From Nostoc sp. NMS7 (GTDB lineage: Bacteria > Cyanobacteriota > Cyanobacteriia > Cyanobacteriales > Nostocaceae), in assembly GCF_017115085.1 (NCBI RefSeq), contig NZ_JABXKJ010000164.1:1-64000 (forward strand): a stretch of DNA of 64,000 nucleotides. Reading direction: 5' to 3'. A program made the translations under genes and the position numbers. The notes below the pieces were generated by a model. It was not told the DNA's origin. It ran no database searches and was given only the letters and a program-made list of their open reading frames with translations. This document shows positions 54,479 to 61,494 of the stretch, in pieces; positions within the stretch are counted from its first letter, which is position 1; each line of letters opens with the position of its first letter.

Positions 54479-56362
54479 ATGTGCGGAATCGTTGGATATA
54501 TAGGCACTCAAGCGGCGACAGACATCTTATTAGCTGGGCTGGAAAAACTAGAGTACAGGGGCTACGATTCTGCTGGAATCGCCACTATTTGGGAAGGTAA
54601 GGTTAATTGTGTGCGGGCAAAGGGCAAACTCCATAACCTGCGTTCTAAACTTGAACAAATAGAAACCCCTAGCCAAATTGGTATTGGTCACACACGCTGG
54701 GCAACTCATGGTAAACCAGAAGAGTACAACGCCCATCCCCACATGGATACGGCAAAGCGAGTGGCGGTGGTACAAAATGGCATTATCGAAAATTACCGCG
54801 AGTTGCGCGAGGAACTCAAAGGAAAAGGACACCAGTTTCTTTCTGAAACCGATACAGAAGTAATTCCCCATCTCATAGCCGAATTTTTAAAGAATCTTCC
54901 CCCCTCATCTACCTCATCTGGCTTCCTAGAAGCAATTCGCCAAGCTGTTAACCACTTACATGGGGCATTTGCGATCGCAGTTATTTCTGCTGACTACCCC
55001 GATGAATTGATTGTTGTTCGCCAACAAGCACCTTTGGTAATTGGTTTTGGGCAAGGGGAGTTCTTTTGTGCGTCTGACACCCTAGCGATCGCTTCCTACA
55101 CCCGTGCAGTGCTACCTTTGGAAAATGGCGAAATTGCCCGCCTCACACCTTTGGGCGTTGAGATTTACAATTTTGCTGGCGACAGGTTGAAAAAACAACC
55201 CCGGCTGCTCAACTTCAATCCTGGAATGGTAGAAAAGCAGGGATTCAAACACTTCATGCTCAAAGAAATCCATGAGCAACCAGGGGTAGTAAGAGCTAGT
55301 TTAGAAGCATACTTTAATAATCTTGGAGAATCTACCGAATCGCCAATCAATCTTGGTTTACCTGCGGATTTATACAACGATTCAGAACAAATTCAGATTG
55401 TCGCCTGTGGTACCAGTTGGCACGCAGCATTAATCGGAAAATATTTAATCGAACAACTAGCAGGAATTTCAACTCAGGTACATTACGCTTCTGAGTATCG
55501 TTATGCACCATCACCCGTGACCGCTAATACGTTGATCATTGGCGTTACCCAATCAGGTGAAACCGCCGATACCCTAGCAGCTTTGGCGATGGAAAAAGAA
55601 CGTCGCCAAGGGAAAGAACCCAAATATCAAGCGCGACTACTGGGTATTACTAATCGCCCCGAAAGCAGCCTTGGTCATCTGGTATCGCATATCATTAGTA
55701 CTCTAGCGGGAATTGAAATTGGGGTAGCGGCGACGAAAACTTTTACTGCTCAATTGATGGCGTTTTATGCTTTGGCATTGGATTTAGCAGCTCGTCGTCA
55801 GACACTTTCAAAAGATATTTTAGAGAAAATTATTAATGGGTTGTGGCAGATTCCCAAAGAAATTGAGGCAACTTTGGAAACTCAGGAACGTTTAACTGAA
55901 CAGTTAGCCCACGAATTCGCCGAAACCCAAGATTTTATTTTTCTGGGAAGGGGAATTAACTTTCCGATTGCTTTAGAAGGGGCGTTGAAATTAAAAGAAA
56001 TCAGCTATATTCACGCCGAAGGCTATCCGGCTGGAGAGATGAAACATGGCCCGATCGCTCTGTTAGATGCGAAAGTACCAGTAGTTGCGATCGCAATCCC
56101 TGGTAGTGTTTACGAAAAAGTTATTTCCAATGCCCAGGAAGCTAAAGCTAGAGATTCTCGGTTAATTGGCGTGACTCCCGTCAACGATGGCGAAGCTGCG
56201 GAAATCTTTAACGATCTTCTTCCTGTCTCTCATGTGGACGAGTTACTTTCTCCCCTTCTCACAGTAGTTCCCTTACAATTGTTGGCTTATCATATTGCCG
56301 CCCGTCGCGGTTTGGATGTCGATCAGCCCAGGAATTTAGCCAAGTCTGTAACAGTTGAGTAA
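54479..56362 (+). CDS. glmS: Glutamine-fructose-6-phosphate aminotransferase (isomerising)
   Basis: Makes glucosamine-6-phosphate, the entry to peptidoglycan and other amino sugars. 627 aa. The mature N-terminus starts MCGIVGYIG with the catalytic Cys2. The glutaminase domain (1-about 240) has GIGHTRWATHG and HNGIIENY-like VVQNGIIENYREL. Two SIS domains follow (about 295-425 and 465-600, with GCGTSWHA-like ACGTSWHAALIG and HAEGYPAGEMKHGPIAL). Ends PRNLAKSVTVE, as in the family. No glmS ribozyme is seen upstream, as expected outside Firmicutes. Confidence 0.97.
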   Translation: MCGIVGYIGTQAATDILLAGLEKLEYRGYDSAGIATIWEGKVNCVRAKGKLHNLRSKLEQIETPSQIGIGHTRWATHGKPEEYNAHPHMDTAKRVAVVQNGIIENYRELREELKGKGHQFLSETDTEVIPHLIAEFLKNLPPSSTSSGFLEAIRQAVNHLHGAFAIAVISADYPDELIVVRQQAPLVIGFGQGEFFCASDTLAIASYTRAVLPLENGEIARLTPLGVEIYNFAGDRLKKQPRLLNFNPGMVEKQGFKHFMLKEIHEQPGVVRASLEAYFNNLGESTESPINLGLPADLYNDSEQIQIVACGTSWHAALIGKYLIEQLAGISTQVHYASEYRYAPSPVTANTLIIGVTQSGETADTLAALAMEKERRQGKEPKYQARLLGITNRPESSLGHLVSHIISTLAGIEIGVAATKTFTAQLMAFYALALDLAARRQTLSKDILEKIINGLWQIPKEIEATLETQERLTEQLAHEFAETQDFIFLGRGINFPIALEGALKLKEISYIHAEGYPAGEMKHGPIALLDAKVPVVAIAIPGSVYEKVISNAQEAKARDSRLIGVTPVNDGEAAEIFNDLLPVSHVDELLSPLLTVVPLQLLAYHIAARRGLDVDQPRNLAKSVTVE

Positions 56363-56387
56363 GTGTTTGGGATAGATATTAAGTGAG

Positions 56388-56530
56388 TGTACAACAATAA
56401 AAAAGTCGTATAACAAATAAAAAAGTTATACAATATATAAAAAAGTTGTACAATTTATAACTTCTGAGTAGCTAACGATAGAATAATGCTTGTAGGCGCT
56501 TAAATTGTACGACTTTTTTATACTTCTACA
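56388..56530. mobile_element. Non-autonomous transposon (143 bp) with TGTA ends and GTGAG target duplication
   Basis: Left end TGTACAACAATAAAAAAGTC and right end (read inward) TGTAGAAGTATAAAAAAGTC match at 20 of 23 bases over the first 23. The direct repeat GTGAG flanks both sides (56383-56387, 56531-56535). Inside the left end, the core AAAAAAGTYGTAYAAC recurs at exact 20-bp steps (A-runs begin at 56399, 56419, 56439). There is one inverted copy near the right end. TGT ends, 5-bp duplications and stepped repeats are features of Tn7/Tn5053-type elements, whose TnsB binds such repeats. No gene inside. Confidence 0.8.
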
Positions 56531-56536
56531 GTGAGG

Positions 56537-56903
56537 TGTAGAGGAATAAAAAAGTTCAACAATAAATAATAAAGTTCTACAATTTCTGTTAGGTGCTTTA
56601 CCCCGCTCCAGGCATCCGTCCATGAATCGCTCGCTTGTCTGTACGCCGTGCGATCGCTACGTTATTACTAGAGCGATCGCCTCCGGCGGGGCGTAGCCCA
56701 TCGCGCCCACATTCGGGTAGAATCACTCTCCTAATTGTTCAACTTTTTTATTTAAGTTTGGTGTCTCTGTGTTGAAAAAGTGGTATGGTGATACCTTTTC
56801 TATCCCCAAATTGTTCAACTTGTTTTTACGTGGACTTGCACCCAACCACGAAAAATCAATGCTTTGAGAGACTAGAATTGTTGAACTTTTTTATATGCTT
56901 ACA
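56537..56903. mobile_element. Second non-autonomous transposon (367 bp), TGAGG target duplication
   Basis: Left end TGTAGAGGAATAAAAAAGTT and right end (inward) TGTAAGCATATAAAAAAGTT share 19 of 24 bases, including all of ATAAAAAAGTTCAAC. TGAGG flanks both sides (56532-56536 and 56904-56908). The left end has two motif copies 20 bp apart (G at 56554 and 56574); the right part has three inverted copies (56735-56751, 56811-56828, 56877-56894). The interior holds HIP1 sites and no ORF. Its left duplication overlaps the right duplication of the first element by four bases. Confidence 0.8.
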
Positions 56904-56946
56904 TGAGGGTTTTGTCAATACGGTTCATTAAGGTGCGCGTCGCATA

Positions 56947-57156
56947 TTTGCTATATCGGCGAACTCATTTGCTATATCGGCGAACTCATTTGCTATTTCG
57001 GCGAACTCATTTGCTATATCGGCGAACTCATTTGCTATATCGGCAAACTCATTTGCTATATCGGCGAACTCATTTGCTATTTCGGCGAACTCATTTGCTA
57101 TTTCGGCGACTCCATTTGCTATTTCGGCGACTCCATTTGCTATTTCGGCGACTTAC
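56947..57156. repeat. Ten-copy 21-bp satellite (TTTGCTATATCGGCGAACTCA)
   Basis: Units start exactly every 21 bp from 56947 to 57136. Variation is small and ordered: TATATC or TATTTC in the middle; the last three copies change GCGAACTCA to GCGACTCCA or GCGACTTAC. All three frames of 21 bp stay open, which explains a spurious repetitive ORF. The array is not CRISPR because there are no spacers. Iterated sites for a DNA-binding protein, or a transposon end array, are possible. Confidence 0.9.
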
Positions 57157-57306
57157 TTGCCACAAAAACCATCACTAGATATTTATCCAAAAGACTTGTC
57201 TGCTTTAACTCCTGCCATTTTTTAAGTCGTCGAACTCACGCTAATAGAGTTATTTTGGTCGTGATAAATACAGCAATTCGCTGGGGTTGTAAGGTGAACC
57301 CAGAAA

Positions 57307-60300
57307 TTAATATTCATCTACAAACTGAGGATGAACCCACAGAAATTCGCGGCGTTTGTTCTGCACTCGCACCAAACCACCAAAGCTAGGATCTTTTTGT
57401 TTCAATAGGGCGTGTAATTCTCGCAAAATCGAGCCTTGGGCGCGAATTGCATCACCTTCTAAAAAGGAAGCATCGCCTTTGGACTTCCCAGTTAATGCCA
57501 TCTCACTGCCCTTCAAAGTAGATTCAATAGTTTTTTGTCCCAAATCAAGTTGTTTTTCAAAGGCTTTGTAGGTGGTGTCATCCAGCATAAACTTAGTTGC
57601 CGAACCAGCTACAGGTAATACTAGGCTGAGAGTTCCTGTCAAAAGTTTGAGATAGGGGACTGCCTTGGTGAACCACTCACGGCGCAAGTCTAATTCATAA
57701 ACTCCCTTTTTCTTGTCGTCGGGATTTAAGGCTGGAAGAGGTTGACGTGCGTGTTCACACCAGAGAGTAAGTTGAAACTTAGCGCTGATCCATTTGGGGC
57801 GATCGCCAAATCCTGGTTCAATGGGCTTAAAGCTAAACAAACGTGGTCCATCTTTCGCTTCATCGGTGAACATCTGCATTAGGTCTGCAAACTGTTGATC
57901 AACTTGGCTGAGAATAATACGTTGCTTCTGAGATAATGCCTGAAAGCGTTGTTGATTTCGACTATCTAAGATAATGAAATCTCTGCGGATGACCTTTAAC
58001 TCCTCTTTCACGATGCTTCGGAATTGCTTAATGCCAATTACTTGGGATGGGGGCGGAGTCGTGGGTGCGTTATTTAGCAAACAATCAATGTTTTGCCATT
58101 CATCACATCCTGAAACTGTGCAGAGAAACTCATCATTCTTCTTTTTACTCTTAATTAATTTTTCTACCTCAAATAGTCCGTTTCCAGGTGTATTTAGGCC
58201 GCAAGGTGCAACACAAGAAACCATAACGTTACAACGTAATCCTTCCCAGAAGTTTTCAACTAGCCATTTAATATCTTCTGTGAGATAGGACAAAAAGCGT
58301 TCTGGATAAGCTGCCCGCACTGTAATTTTTACATCAGTGTCCACATACTCCAGCAATGCCCGACCGTTGTAGTCATTGTCAAGCATCAAACCCCGTTGCC
58401 AGTGGATGCTGTCTTCGTAATTTGTCCGCCCTAGTGAGTATTTATGCAACCGAACAATCAACTGGTAAAACAATCCTTCTGCCACTGCAAACTGTCCCCG
58501 ACTGTCCACAATGCGGCAGATTTGTACCTGTTGTCTGTCTCCCGCTTCTGGTTGCTCTCCCCAATTGGGTAATCTTTCCGGGCGTGTATCAGGGACGAGT
58601 TGGGCAATCAGGCTGGTATTGCTAGGTTTTAACTGATCTAATACCACTTTGTAGGAGAGATCAAAGCGTTCCATCAGCCGTAAAAAGATGGGATGGAGTT
58701 CTTTTGAGTAGCCTTCTTCCCCTGCAAATGGGGGATTGCTCCATAATTCACTGAGATAATCAAATTCGATTAATCCATTTTTGTCACGAGTTTTTTTATC
58801 ATCCAGCACGAAGCTGATCGCTTTTGCCAGCCAGTCGGGTTTGAGGATGACTATATCGCGCAGTGTTGGGTCGTAATGGTAATGGATGAAATGCCCCAAG
58901 ATATGGGAGATGCGAAGGAATAGTTCTGCTTGCTGCTCATCAATTCCCTGTTGGGCGCAGATGGCAATAACATCATCGTAAGGTAAATAGGCTTTGTCCC
59001 TAGTTTTCAAGATTTCCCGTACCTGTTGCCACTTGGCAGGAACGGAACGCCCGACTTCAGGAAGAGATGCAGCGACACGAGCAATTTTTTCTTTTAATTC
59101 TATCAGCCCGGTGTTATGTGTTGTAATTTCCTGGGGTTTACTGTCTACATGGAAGAAATCAAGCACCGTATCTTTGCCGAATTGATCCAAAATTTCCTGT
59201 CTGTCAATGTCTGGTTGTCGCTGTCCGGGTCCGCCGTGGGTGGCAACTACCAATACTTTGGCATCCGGTTCTCGATTTTTGATTAGCGTGATCCACTCTT
59301 TGACAAAACCTTGCTGGGGTCCTTCCCGTGGTTTCCACACTACCAGATACACGGCTGGCGCACTGAAAAACAACTGGTGTGTTGGTCGATAAACCCGTTG
59401 ACCGCCAAAATCCCAACCATTCAAGGTGATTTCTGTGCCACTGTCGGGATCGGTAAGAATTACAGGTTTAATCTCAATCCCGTGAGTGGTGGGGCGACCT
59501 TCCACCCATTCATCACCCCCCAACGCTCCTAACAGGCAACTCTTCCCGACTTCACCCTCACCAACTAGGATTAGTTTGGCTTCATTTAGTGTTATTTGTT
59601 TGTCTGCTTTTGCCCGCAGGTATTCTAAGACGGCTTCAGTGCCTTGTTCATAAGCAGCCGCAAGGTCGGGGTTGAGCGGATTATCGTCGAGTTCCACAGT
59701 CTCTAAGTGCGGAAGTTGTCCTAAAGATGGTGGTAAGTCGGTCAGACTATTGGCATTTAATTCGAGTTTTTGAAGCTGTGTAAATTCACCAATCCAATTG
59801 GGCAAAAATTGTAATTCACATTGGTAAGCCCATAATCTTCGGAGTTGCTTAAGTTGTCTGAGAGATATTGGAAGTTTTAAGAGCGGGTTCCCTCCAGACA
59901 TATAACCTAAACCTAAATGTTGCAGCTGGCTCAGGAATGCGATTGCCTCTGGCAGTTCTGTCAGTTTGTTATTGGTGAGATTCAGTATTTGTAACAGAGA
60001 CAGGGAGGCGATTGCCTCTGGCAGTTCTGTCAGTTGGTTGCTGGAGAGGTAAAGCGTTTGCAACAGAGTCAGGGAGGCGATCGCATCTGGTATTTCTGTC
60101 AGTTGGTTGCTGGAGAGGTCAAGCGTTTGCAACAGAGTCAGGGAGGCGATCGCATCTGGTATTTCTGTCAGTTGGTTGCTGGAGAGGTAAAGCGTTTGCA
60201 ACAGAGTTAGGGAAGTGATCGCATCTGGTATTTCTGTCAGTTGGTTGCTGGAGAGGTCAAGCGATTGCAATAGAGTCAGGGAGCCGATCGCATCTGGTAT

Positions 60301-60609
60301 TTCTGTCAGTTGGTTGTTGTAGAGGTTAAGCTCTTGCAACTGAGTCAGGAAGGCGATCGCATCTGGTATTTCTGTCAGTTGGTTGTTCGAGAGGTTAAGC
60401 TCTTGCAACTGAGACAGGGAAGCGATCGCATCTGGTATTTCTGTCAGTTGGTTGTTCGAGAGGTTAAGCTCTTGCAACTGAGACAGGGAGGCGATCGCTT
60501 CTGGTACCTCAGTGAGTTCCATATTGCTGAGATCGAGTTCTGTTGCTCCCTCTTGCCGTGCCTTTTCAATACGCTGCTCCGCTTTCTGATAAGCCTGATC
60601 TCTTGCCAT
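57307..60609 (-). CDS. LRR-Roc-COR protein (ROCO GTPase)
   Basis: 1100 aa. About twelve leucine-rich repeats (residues 22-310, 23-residue unit LTEIPDAIASLTLLQTLYLS) precede a Roc GTPase domain with P-loop VGEGEVGKSCLLG (349-361) and DFGGQ (400-404). The guanine-specificity motif is ATHGG rather than NKxD. A COR dimerisation domain follows (about 530-740, LPYDDVIAICAQQGI, then IVILKPDWLAKAI). The last 300 residues are unassigned and may be an effector. Prokaryotic ROCO proteins are dimeric GTPases of unclear duty, frequent in Nostoc. ATG 60609 fits. Transcribed alone; its 3' end faces the satellite and transposon region. Confidence 0.92.
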   Translation of the reverse strand: MARDQAYQKAEQRIEKARQEGATELDLSNMELTEVPEAIASLSQLQELNLSNNQLTEIPDAIASLSQLQELNLSNNQLTEIPDAIAFLTQLQELNLYNNQLTEIPDAIGSLTLLQSLDLSSNQLTEIPDAITSLTLLQTLYLSSNQLTEIPDAIASLTLLQTLDLSSNQLTEIPDAIASLTLLQTLYLSSNQLTELPEAIASLSLLQILNLTNNKLTELPEAIAFLSQLQHLGLGYMSGGNPLLKLPISLRQLKQLRRLWAYQCELQFLPNWIGEFTQLQKLELNANSLTDLPPSLGQLPHLETVELDDNPLNPDLAAAYEQGTEAVLEYLRAKADKQITLNEAKLILVGEGEVGKSCLLGALGGDEWVEGRPTTHGIEIKPVILTDPDSGTEITLNGWDFGGQRVYRPTHQLFFSAPAVYLVVWKPREGPQQGFVKEWITLIKNREPDAKVLVVATHGGPGQRQPDIDRQEILDQFGKDTVLDFFHVDSKPQEITTHNTGLIELKEKIARVAASLPEVGRSVPAKWQQVREILKTRDKAYLPYDDVIAICAQQGIDEQQAELFLRISHILGHFIHYHYDPTLRDIVILKPDWLAKAISFVLDDKKTRDKNGLIEFDYLSELWSNPPFAGEEGYSKELHPIFLRLMERFDLSYKVVLDQLKPSNTSLIAQLVPDTRPERLPNWGEQPEAGDRQQVQICRIVDSRGQFAVAEGLFYQLIVRLHKYSLGRTNYEDSIHWQRGLMLDNDYNGRALLEYVDTDVKITVRAAYPERFLSYLTEDIKWLVENFWEGLRCNVMVSCVAPCGLNTPGNGLFEVEKLIKSKKKNDEFLCTVSGCDEWQNIDCLLNNAPTTPPPSQVIGIKQFRSIVKEELKVIRRDFIILDSRNQQRFQALSQKQRIILSQVDQQFADLMQMFTDEAKDGPRLFSFKPIEPGFGDRPKWISAKFQLTLWCEHARQPLPALNPDDKKKGVYELDLRREWFTKAVPYLKLLTGTLSLVLPVAGSATKFMLDDTTYKAFEKQLDLGQKTIESTLKGSEMALTGKSKGDASFLEGDAIRAQGSILRELHALLKQKDPSFGGLVRVQNKRREFLWVHPQFVDEY
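59925..60521 (-). repeat. In-gene 69-bp repeats of the LRR domain
   Basis: The LRR part of the ROCO gene has nine or so nearly identical 69-bp units (23 codons), for instance 'gcgatcgcatctggtatttctgtcagttggttgctggagagg' repeated. Many units contain a HIP1-type GCGATCGC. Nucleotide near-identity shows recent unit duplication, so copy number is likely to vary between strains. Confidence 0.9.
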
Positions 60610-61203
60610 GACTAAATCCTTTCTCTCACTACCAAAATCGGAATAATAGCTAGATTTTTCTGGTTAACAGCCCATACAGTAAATTTAGCCAGAAAATCTT
60701 AGCCTAACATTCCAACAAACGGCGAACAACGCTACGGATAAAAATTAATTGACTTGCTGAAAAATAAAATATATGCAGATGAGGGCGATCGCATTTTTGA
60801 AATGGTGCGATCGCGCTTGTACATTAACTCAATGCGTGGAACGATGGTTAAAGTTAAGTATCTCTGCAAAATTAATTTCTTATTTTTCCATAATGACGAT
60901 TGGTAAGCATTTGATTCGCTTGGGAATTCTCCAAATTTACTTAGTGCAACCTGTGAACCTATCCCACTAATAATATTTGTGCTATAAAGCTTAAGCTTAT
61001 TGACGAACTGAAAACGAAAAATTCAGGTTTTCAAGCACATTTTACAAAAAGAAGTAGGGATTTTTAGAATAGTGGGATAGGTTCGTGCGATCGCATCCCT
61101 CGCTTTCCTCAAGCTGTTGATTCAGCTTTGCACTTGGGATGCGATCGCCACTAAATCTTGGAGCAAATATTCCCAAATCCTTACAGGGAAGTCGTTTGCG
61201 AAA
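60610..61203. other. Intergenic region upstream of ROCO gene
   Basis: About 590 bp. Only short ORFs without protein character are open here. It contains the inverted pair at 60955/61070. The first 80 bp upstream of 60609 should hold the ROCO promoter; GAGAAAGGATT before the ATG (60616-60626, complement) gives a ribosome-binding site. Confidence 0.5.
60955..61084. repeat. 15-bp perfect inverted repeats, 130-bp span
   Basis: GAACCTATCCCACTA (60955-60969) and TAGTGGGATAGGTTC (61070-61084) are exact inverted copies separated by 100 bp of AT-rich DNA. The span might be a miniature element or a long-range hairpin. No direct target repeat is obvious at its borders. Confidence 0.85.
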
Positions 61204-61229
61204 TTGTACAACTTTTTTAGTTGTTTACA
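61204..61229. mobile_element. Lone transposon end matching the elements at 56388 and 56537
   Basis: Read inward from 61229, the sequence is TGTAAACAACTAAAAAAGTT, then GTACAATTT: the same TGTA-n6-TAAAAAAGTT-GTAC design. No matching left end with a TGTAA duplication is found, so it is a solo or decayed end. It finishes four bases before the ATG of the DUF4160 gene. Confidence 0.65.
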
Positions 61230-61233
61230 TGTA

Positions 61234-61494
61234 ATGCCAGAAATTAGCCGTTTTCTAGGAATTATTATCACCATGTATTATAATGACCATCCACCCCCAC
61301 ATTTCCACGTTCGCTATAATCAACAAAAAGCGATTATTAATATCGAAACATTATCGATATTAGAAGGAAAACTGTCTTCAAGAGTATTAGCATTTGTACT
61401 TGAATGGGCAAACTTACATAAAACAGAATTGATGGAAAACTGGGAAAAAGCTAGACGGAATAATCCTGTAGAAAAAATCGAACCACTGGAGTAA
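61234..61494 (+). CDS. DUF4160 domain protein
   Basis: 86 aa from ATG 61234. The DUF4160 signature is complete: MPEISRFLGIIITMYYNDHP, PPHFHVRYN and a C-terminal W(A/E)..H..EL..NW. The frame is open for another 39 codons upstream, but those lie across the transposon end. DUF4160 is nearly always followed by DUF2442, as here (3 bp after), and the pair behaves as a toxin-antitoxin-like module in distribution. Biochemical role unknown. Confidence 0.88.
   Translation: MPEISRFLGIIITMYYNDHPPPHFHVRYNQQKAIINIETLSILEGKLSSRVLAFVLEWANLHKTELMENWEKARRNNPVEKIEPLE

Follow-up and report, generated by a model that had tools for sequence, protein, structure and literature searches.

Tn7 inserts about 20-25 bp past glmS, in one orientation and with TnsD bound to the end of the gene, as described in PMC2918618. 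Target immunity of Tn7 acts via TnsB on the resident ends over up to 190 kb, and exceptions are also reported (PMC4321384, PMC12452197, PMC11406308). For CRISPR-associated transposons (CASTs) of type I-B1, PMC11406308 describes a TnsD for glmS together with a TniQ derived from truncated TnsD, and gives them as reported from cyanobacteria only; the same paper describes Tn5469 as having one TniQ and no cargo. Here we analyzed a 64-kb stretch of DNA from Nostoc sp. NMS7 (the window), in which two gene-less mini-elements with TGTA…TACA ends, termed E1 and E2, lie directly 3' of glmS. Judged from their sequence, they are tiny Tn7-type transposons of different sub-families, both located at the Tn7 homing spot. 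A search of titles, with the subscription literature mostly outside its scope, yielded no report of Tn7-derived MITEs or of CASTs stacked at glmS with base-pair spacing. Two papers of Parks and Peters on Tn7 islands reportedly treat multiple insertions at attTn7, and stacking at this site as such may already be known.

The original prediction had been made from the window alone, and its coordinates, termini, 5-bp duplications GTGAG and TGAGG, their overlap and the shared rebuilt target all proved exact (Table 1). Taking both elements out of the window leaves ATATTAAGTGAGGGTTTTG. The first base of E1 is located 25 bases past the glmS stop codon, which is the attTn7 position, and with E1 removed E2 starts 26 bases past it. 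Together the elements contain nine occurrences of a 20-bp motif, in E1 as three sites in 20-bp steps plus one opposed site and in E2 as two sites in 20-bp steps plus three opposed ones (67 and 76 bp apart). Using a matrix derived from these same nine sites, which themselves score 23-31 bits, we found one further strong match (at least 23 bits) in the window, at 61201; the next best reached 11.8 bits. Genome-wide, a one-site pattern allowing two mismatches at most gave 25 hits compared to 35 for the reversed control, so that weak single-site hits are attributed to chance; exact hits were found five times, all inside E1 and E2. Of 388 genomes of the order, 21 contained the two-site pattern, the window's own among them, and since the reversed control gave none in these genomes it is not a chance pattern. 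The interpretation of the stepped copies as arrays of TnsB-type sites is supported, in agreement with two non-coding Tn7-type mini-elements 3' of glmS.

Table 1. Position of glmS, the mini-elements and neighboring features in the window (RE, right end; LE, left end).
Feature	Position	Strand	Remark
glmS	54479..56362	+	ORF of 627 aa; orthologues found
Target duplication GTGAG, left copy	56383..56387	.	glmS stop codon +21 to +25
E1	56388..56530	+	143 bp; apparent fusion of RE and LE of a type I-B1 CAST
E1 RE	56388..56457	+	TGTA terminus and three TnsB-type sites in 20-bp steps
E1 LE, terminal part	56464..56530	-	one site
Target duplication GTGAG, right copy	56531..56535	.
Target duplication TGAGG, left copy	56532..56536	.	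four-base overlap with the right GTGAG copy
E2	56537..56903	+	367-bp MITE, TnsABCD transposon sub-family
E2 RE	56537..56588	+	two sites, 20-bp step
E2 LE	56732..56903	-	three sites; spacing 67 and 76 bp, counted inward from the terminus
Target duplication TGAGG, right copy	56904..56908	.
LRR-Roc-COR (ROCO) GTPase gene	57307..60609	-	homologues recur near glmS
E3, lone LE remnant of an E1-class element	61085..61229	-	90% over 142-147 bp to the LE of G378 and G418

Both elements combine TGT…ACA ends with a 5-bp duplication, as Tn7-like elements do. The arrangement of multiple TnsB-type sites, with one tandem end and one spaced end, is complete in E2, and E1 has kept three sites at its RE and one at its LE. 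They share with prototypic Tn7 the 5-bp duplication, the TGT…ACA ends, the distance of about 20-25 bp from glmS and the fixed orientation; which end faces glmS and the end anatomy likewise match. They differ from it in the sequence of the sites, and their relatives also carry Cascade genes. No ORF of at least 50 aa lies wholly within the 367 bp of E2 according to the ORF list, and both elements are too short to hold tnsABC genes of their own. Since there is no room for tnsABC and no cognate TnsB was detected in the genome, we regard E1 and E2 as non-autonomous derivatives. If they were instead fixed regulatory or structural repeats such as terminator-like hairpins, this would account for their location, where several relatives have the glmS terminator hairpin, and for the inverted repeats inside them; the target duplications, the about 11 sites of the E2 family with duplications of their own and the RE of E1, which is a CAST end, reduce the probability of this explanation to almost nil.

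The origin of E1 was investigated by comparing its ends with those of other elements. In 70 of 70 positions its RE equals that of the glmS-borne element in Nostoc sp. FACHB-152 (L235); five other REs compared with the first 70 bases of E1 gave 60-69 of 70, with 66 for the glmS element of N. parmelioides FACHB-3921 (L237) and 60 for the Calothrix copy. With tblastn, tnsA, tnsB, tnsC (in two pieces), tniQ, cas6 and cas5 were detected in the FACHB-152 copy; cas8 and cas7 were not found by this search, and the element is therefore taken to be decayed. The N. parmelioides and Calothrix copies gave tblastn matches to tnsABC, tniQ and cas6-cas8-cas7-cas5. Identities of the cas genes were assigned by PADLOC on the Calothrix copy and the copy in genome G404, and additionally by NCBIfam on the latter for cas8, cas7 and cas5; Pfam detected cas6 and cas5 in the G404 copy and missed cas8 and cas7. 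The source of E1 thus shares its RE with elements at glmS that carry tnsABC, tniQ and I-B cas genes, and their positions point to glmS-directed insertion at a fixed distance.

The remaining part of E1 resembles LEs of such islands, namely one at glmS in G404 (L222; 91% over 67 bp), one in G389 (85% over 67 bp) and one in G378 (87% over 62 bp). Because one half matches the RE and the other half the LE of CAST islands, E1 is, on this comparison, an end-to-end RE-LE fusion with the middle lost. It may have shrunk after insertion instead of having moved as a mini-element. Another RE-LE fusion is present in Nostoc calcicola FACHB-3891 (G363); it is 193 bp long, its joint differs from that of E1, and no matching duplication was found on its right side. 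The multiple dispersed copies typical of MITEs were not observed for E1; across the loci compared, the full-length element was confined to its own position. With type I-B1 CASTs of the AvCAST group E1 has the ends and the place after glmS in common; its relatives carry tnsA-tnsB-tnsC-tniQ-cas6-cas8-cas7-cas5, and those in G404 and Calothrix also a second, longer TnsD. Unlike these CASTs, E1 is a gene-free fusion of 143 bp.

E2 has different relatives. Over 47 bp its RE shares 93.6% identity with that of a TnsABCD element in Hydrococcus rivularis NIES-593 (L074/L223), and the sites in the LE of that element have the same spacing of 67 and 76 bp. The Hydrococcus element is 6,365 bp long, is flanked by the duplication TACGC and contains tnsA, tnsB, tnsC and tnsD between such ends. 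A further copy with sites of the E2 type, here called class D (those of the E1 type being class A), was found in Iningainema tapete (L241) with broken tnsA and tnsB. By tblastn, both elements have one TnsD-like protein and no cas match between their ends. The protein of the Hydrococcus element aligns to positions 1-214 of the 355 in the Pfam TnsD model, and the TnsD of the G404 CAST to positions 1-355. The elements of Hydrococcus and Iningainema are like E2 in RE, LE sequence and site spacing, and the Hydrococcus element is unlike it in having 6,365 bp with genes as opposed to 367 bp without. By description, the lifestyle of such TnsABCD elements without cas matches resembles that of Tn5469.

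Elsewhere, relatives of E2 show 84.6-94.6% identity in five loci. Some match to E2 was obtained in 52 of the 53 genomes of the genus, many among the matches listed being 30-40 bp long and corresponding to an interior repeat. We examined 26 E2-type loci and found both ends in 19, one or both being absent in seven. An exact 5-bp duplication flanks 17 of the 19 two-ended copies; these represent about 11 distinct sites, since several copies are the same site in different genomes, and in L087, which is among the 17, a terminus is mutated. The search was also evaluated in the 13 assemblies of the genus with at most 20 contigs, scoring up to 13 candidates per genome: hits of at least 200 bases occurred in eight of these assemblies, and 12 of the 13 such hits among the matches listed lie off the glmS contig, with one of the E2-bearing contigs concerned (G265:C7) measuring 1.04 Mb. 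In G400 and G426 an E2-type RE is followed by just the first 31-37 codons of tnsA. A complete class D transposon was not found in the genus among the loci compared. E2 is non-coding, has dispersed copies with duplications and has an autonomous partner with similar ends, as expected for a MITE. Like bacterial MITEs in general it is short, bears end repeats and duplications, occurs in several copies and is presumably mobilized in trans. Unlike them it derives from a Tn7-type multi-subunit transposase and has asymmetric ends with multiple sites; most described MITEs stem from IS or Tn3 elements.

Several observations were made on the surroundings of the E2 family. Seven copies (L082, L083, L087, L194, L195, L196 and L209, about four distinct sites) share, close to the junction, a conserved GGTATTAATCGTAGTTTATGTCGGATAAAAGATAAGGGTATCTTATTTTG (with variants), and at some of these sites an imperfect palindrome GCATAAG-TGAGCAA-TTGCTCGCTTTATGC is present as well; this flanking stretch is possibly a candidate plasmid recombination or attachment site. 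E2-family or class D insertions close to genes of the tyrosine recombinase type were seen in G408:C5, G408:C6 and G391:C2 and also in L074, L204 and L241, the last three at 20, 65 and 66 bp from integrase-like ORFs (named by eye). Copies within 1.5 kb of a PF00589 gene were counted at three of eight distinct sites (expected 0.36, P 0.003), and in an 11-copy version for four of 11 copies (expected 0.45, P 0.0007); this comparison was designed after the pattern had been seen, takes integrase positions from among the matches listed and includes neither the split copy of G408:C3 nor the copy of G404:C1, whose nearest listed integrase is about 16 kb away. Genes for tRNAs were considered as targets and dismissed, as none was detected in the 10 loci scanned. 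Some copies lie beside other Tn7-like elements, with a TniQ gene next to L087 and, by eye, similar neighbors at L195 and L198.

We looked for a transposase in the window's draft genome that could act on these ends. Five PF09299 loci were found, on contigs C23, C135, C201, C119 (L036) and C259 (L037). Profile A1 detected the TnsABCD element on C23 (E 2.4e-160) and two weak hits only. The TnsB of C23 is 37% identical to that of the Hydrococcus element, and the 18 kb around it are devoid of a strong E1/E2-type site (best 16.2 bits). Neither the five PF09299 loci nor profile A1 thus revealed a cognate TnsB for the ends of E1 and E2 in this draft genome, and the two elements are presumably left stranded unless TnsABC comes from a related element. 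On C119, a single protein carries TnsA and TnsB domains, and on C259, which is cut by the contig end, the TnsB part alone is visible.

The original prediction had further proposed an autonomous copy with the same ends, possibly linked to cas12k. The first part holds insofar as Nostocales and other cyanobacteria do contain transposases with matching ends. The second part found no support: the relatives of E1 are I-B1 CASTs with Cas6, Cas8, Cas7 and Cas5, and that of E2 is a TnsABCD element without a cas match. Cyanobacterial V-K CASTs likewise have TGTA ends, and with the short TnsB/TnsC/TniQ sets on C135 and C201 the genome contains two loci that could make the pair part of a V-K (Cas12k) system. 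The 20 kb around each of them, however, lack a strong ATAAAAAAGTT-type site, the best values being 16.6 (L034) and 10.2 bits (L035) compared to 23-31 bits for the sites of E1 and E2. Ends shared with a TnsB-TnsC-TniQ set were thus not found around these two loci, and the relatives with matching ends are TnsA-bearing TnsABCD and I-B1 elements. We consider a V-K origin very improbable and rejected such a partner on the end motifs.

To place the pair in context, the strip 3' of glmS was compared in all 53 genomes of the genus and turned out to be highly variable. Among 22 loci with ends of the two-site pattern in other genomes (L072-L093; 3-20 kb each), the end is located just past glmS in 11 (L075-L079, L084, L086, L089-L092). 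By fixed criteria, 15 of the 53 genomes have a plus-strand site resembling those of E1 and E2 within 120 bp of the glmS stop codon and eight have one of the AATTCGG kind (class E), together 23 of 53; remnants were recognized by eye in a further four (G374, G421, G396 and G410), and several of the remaining genomes have an intact terminator hairpin after glmS. A transposon terminus was recognized after glmS in 22 of the 53 genomes, and in 18 of these 22 it lies 24-26 bp from the stop codon. Over all 72 loci (53 of the genus and 19 others) the value is 30 of 37; here at least two genomes are counted twice (G415 is L238, G417 is L242), and the count within the genus is therefore preferred. The glmS terminator hairpin of G404 is interrupted by a class E I-B1 CAST (about 28.5 kb, duplication GTTTA), and in G407 the same hairpin is unbroken. 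G363 contains a stack with the order glmS, ATTGT, a class E element of about 34 kb, ATTGT and the 193-bp class A RE-LE mini-element. Past glmS in L143 (G413), an 18-bp terminus and its 11-bp flank occur twice in tandem, both termini being identical.

The order in which E1 and E2 were inserted had been thought to be readable from the duplications. This is not the case, because insertions simulated with E1 first and with E2 first gave an identical final string. The proposed priority of the 367-bp element can be argued solely from the constant spacing relative to glmS: had both elements been positioned by their distance from the gene, a newcomer would always land next to it, and E2 would be the older one. 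The rebuilt target was not found as an empty site in any of the 53 genomes, where relatives had been expected to show it. Since the strip is hypervariable between genomes, we read this result as uninformative rather than as contradicting the prediction.

We favor, at a probability of roughly 0.85, a history in which a repeatedly hit attTn7 strip received first the class D MITE E2 and then the class A element from which E1 derives, an I-B1 CAST. It builds on the anatomy of the pair, the kinship of the two families, the fixed att distance in relatives and two classes of sites that follow TnsB clades. E2, a non-autonomous MITE of the CRISPR-free TnsABCD sub-family, would have inserted 26 bp past the glmS stop codon. 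Later a class A type I-B1 CAST, or a mini-derivative of it, would have inserted 25 bp past the stop, between glmS and E2, and would survive as the 143-bp E1. Both would most likely have been placed by a TnsD reading glmS, with TnsABC acting in trans. A fixed distance from glmS would explain why the duplications overlap by four bases and why in both elements the end with the tandem sites faces glmS. Since glmS was absent from every stretch fetched around the other E2-type loci, the placement of E2 by TnsD is suggested wholly by its position and orientation.

In the reverse sequence of events, E1 would have come first to attTn7 and E2 would then have entered the right-hand GTGAGG independently of TnsD, at random or drawn to the transposon end. 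The duplications agree equally with this order, and copies of the E2 family do occupy other sites, some of them beside Tn7-like elements. Had the insertion of E2 not been measured from glmS, however, its location within one base of attTn7 and in the orientation given by TnsD would be a coincidence. We regard the E1-first order as unlikely.

Two Tn7-type elements one base apart had been noted as conflicting with target immunity. The close neighborhood is confirmed, and the conflict is weaker than stated, as the elements belong to two site classes with separate TnsB clades. With models trained on sites outside the window, all four E1 sites scored as class A and all five E2 sites as class D, with margins of 2-12 bits. 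Leaving out one locus at a time, 84 of 86 sites were classified correctly, a value inflated by near-identical copies of the E2 family (the 63 class D sites comprise 18 different sequences and the 23 class A sites 16). The TnsB proteins associated with classes A, D and E form separate clades, each with a support of at least 100/99. What separates sites of classes A and D is chiefly two core positions, and for several single sites the class scores are just 2-4 bits apart, so that one TnsB could possibly bind both. Neighbors of unlike class at glmS were also found in G363 (class E, then A) and, judged from a 20-base remnant, in G399, where class A lies beside a class E terminus. Against a strict rule stand G420, with an unclassified remnant before class A, and G413, with its two like termini in tandem; moreover, the E3 LE, 4.7 kb away and lacking an RE, is of class A like E1, and like ends thus co-occur on the island. 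It is plausible that different TnsB-site classes allowed the second insertion to escape target immunity.

E3 is apparently shortened by a deletion between LE sites, and no RE of its own was found. The ROCO gene is probably cargo of the island: G413 and G077 have a homologue immediately past the transposon end 3' of glmS, and in G330 one lies about 58 kb from that gene. It gave no match in the PADLOC defence library. One might take E1, E2 and the E3 LE as pieces of one large Tn7-like island, with its RE at 56388, its LE at 61229, ROCO as cargo and E2 inside, which would fit the common class of the E1 RE and the E3 LE as well as the position of ROCO after the RE in G413 and G077. E1, however, has an LE of its own and an exact duplication, and the bases outside E3 are TGTAA, not GTGAG. 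The single-island explanation is thus improbable, and separate insertions of E1 and E2 remain the preferred reading.

The gene prmA follows glmS at 5.5 kb in the window, with ROCO and the E3 LE between the two genes, and at 3.5-11.5 kb in G356, G395, G411, G393 and G398, accompanied by serA in four of these five; the other stretches fetched around glmS ended before any prmA. To the right of E2 (56946-57170) lies a 21-bp tandem repeat, TTTGCTATWTCGGCGAACTCA, and similar arrays were seen elsewhere on the same contig (L110), in G240 (L113) and in G378 (L102). The DUF4160 ORF at 61117-61494 was probably called too long, as its first 39 codons are mostly transposon left-end DNA; the gene proper seems to begin at 61234.

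Taken together, the 53 glmS loci compared reveal that CASTs have landed recurrently at this site in Nostoc, and they illustrate how the order of insertions might be argued from position where duplications cannot tell. A MITE of the Tn7 family suggests that multi-site ends alone suffice for spread by a multi-protein transposase. More tentatively, and with the odds somewhat against it, attTn7 in Nostoc may be a contested site, at which sub-families of diverged class stack because class divergence evades the immunity of the resident; the CRISPR-free class D would survive largely as plasmid-spread MITEs near recombinase-type sites and return to glmS via the TnsD of others. With natural Tn7-type neighbors a single base apart, the specificity of target immunity can be tested directly, a point of importance to genome engineering with CASTs.
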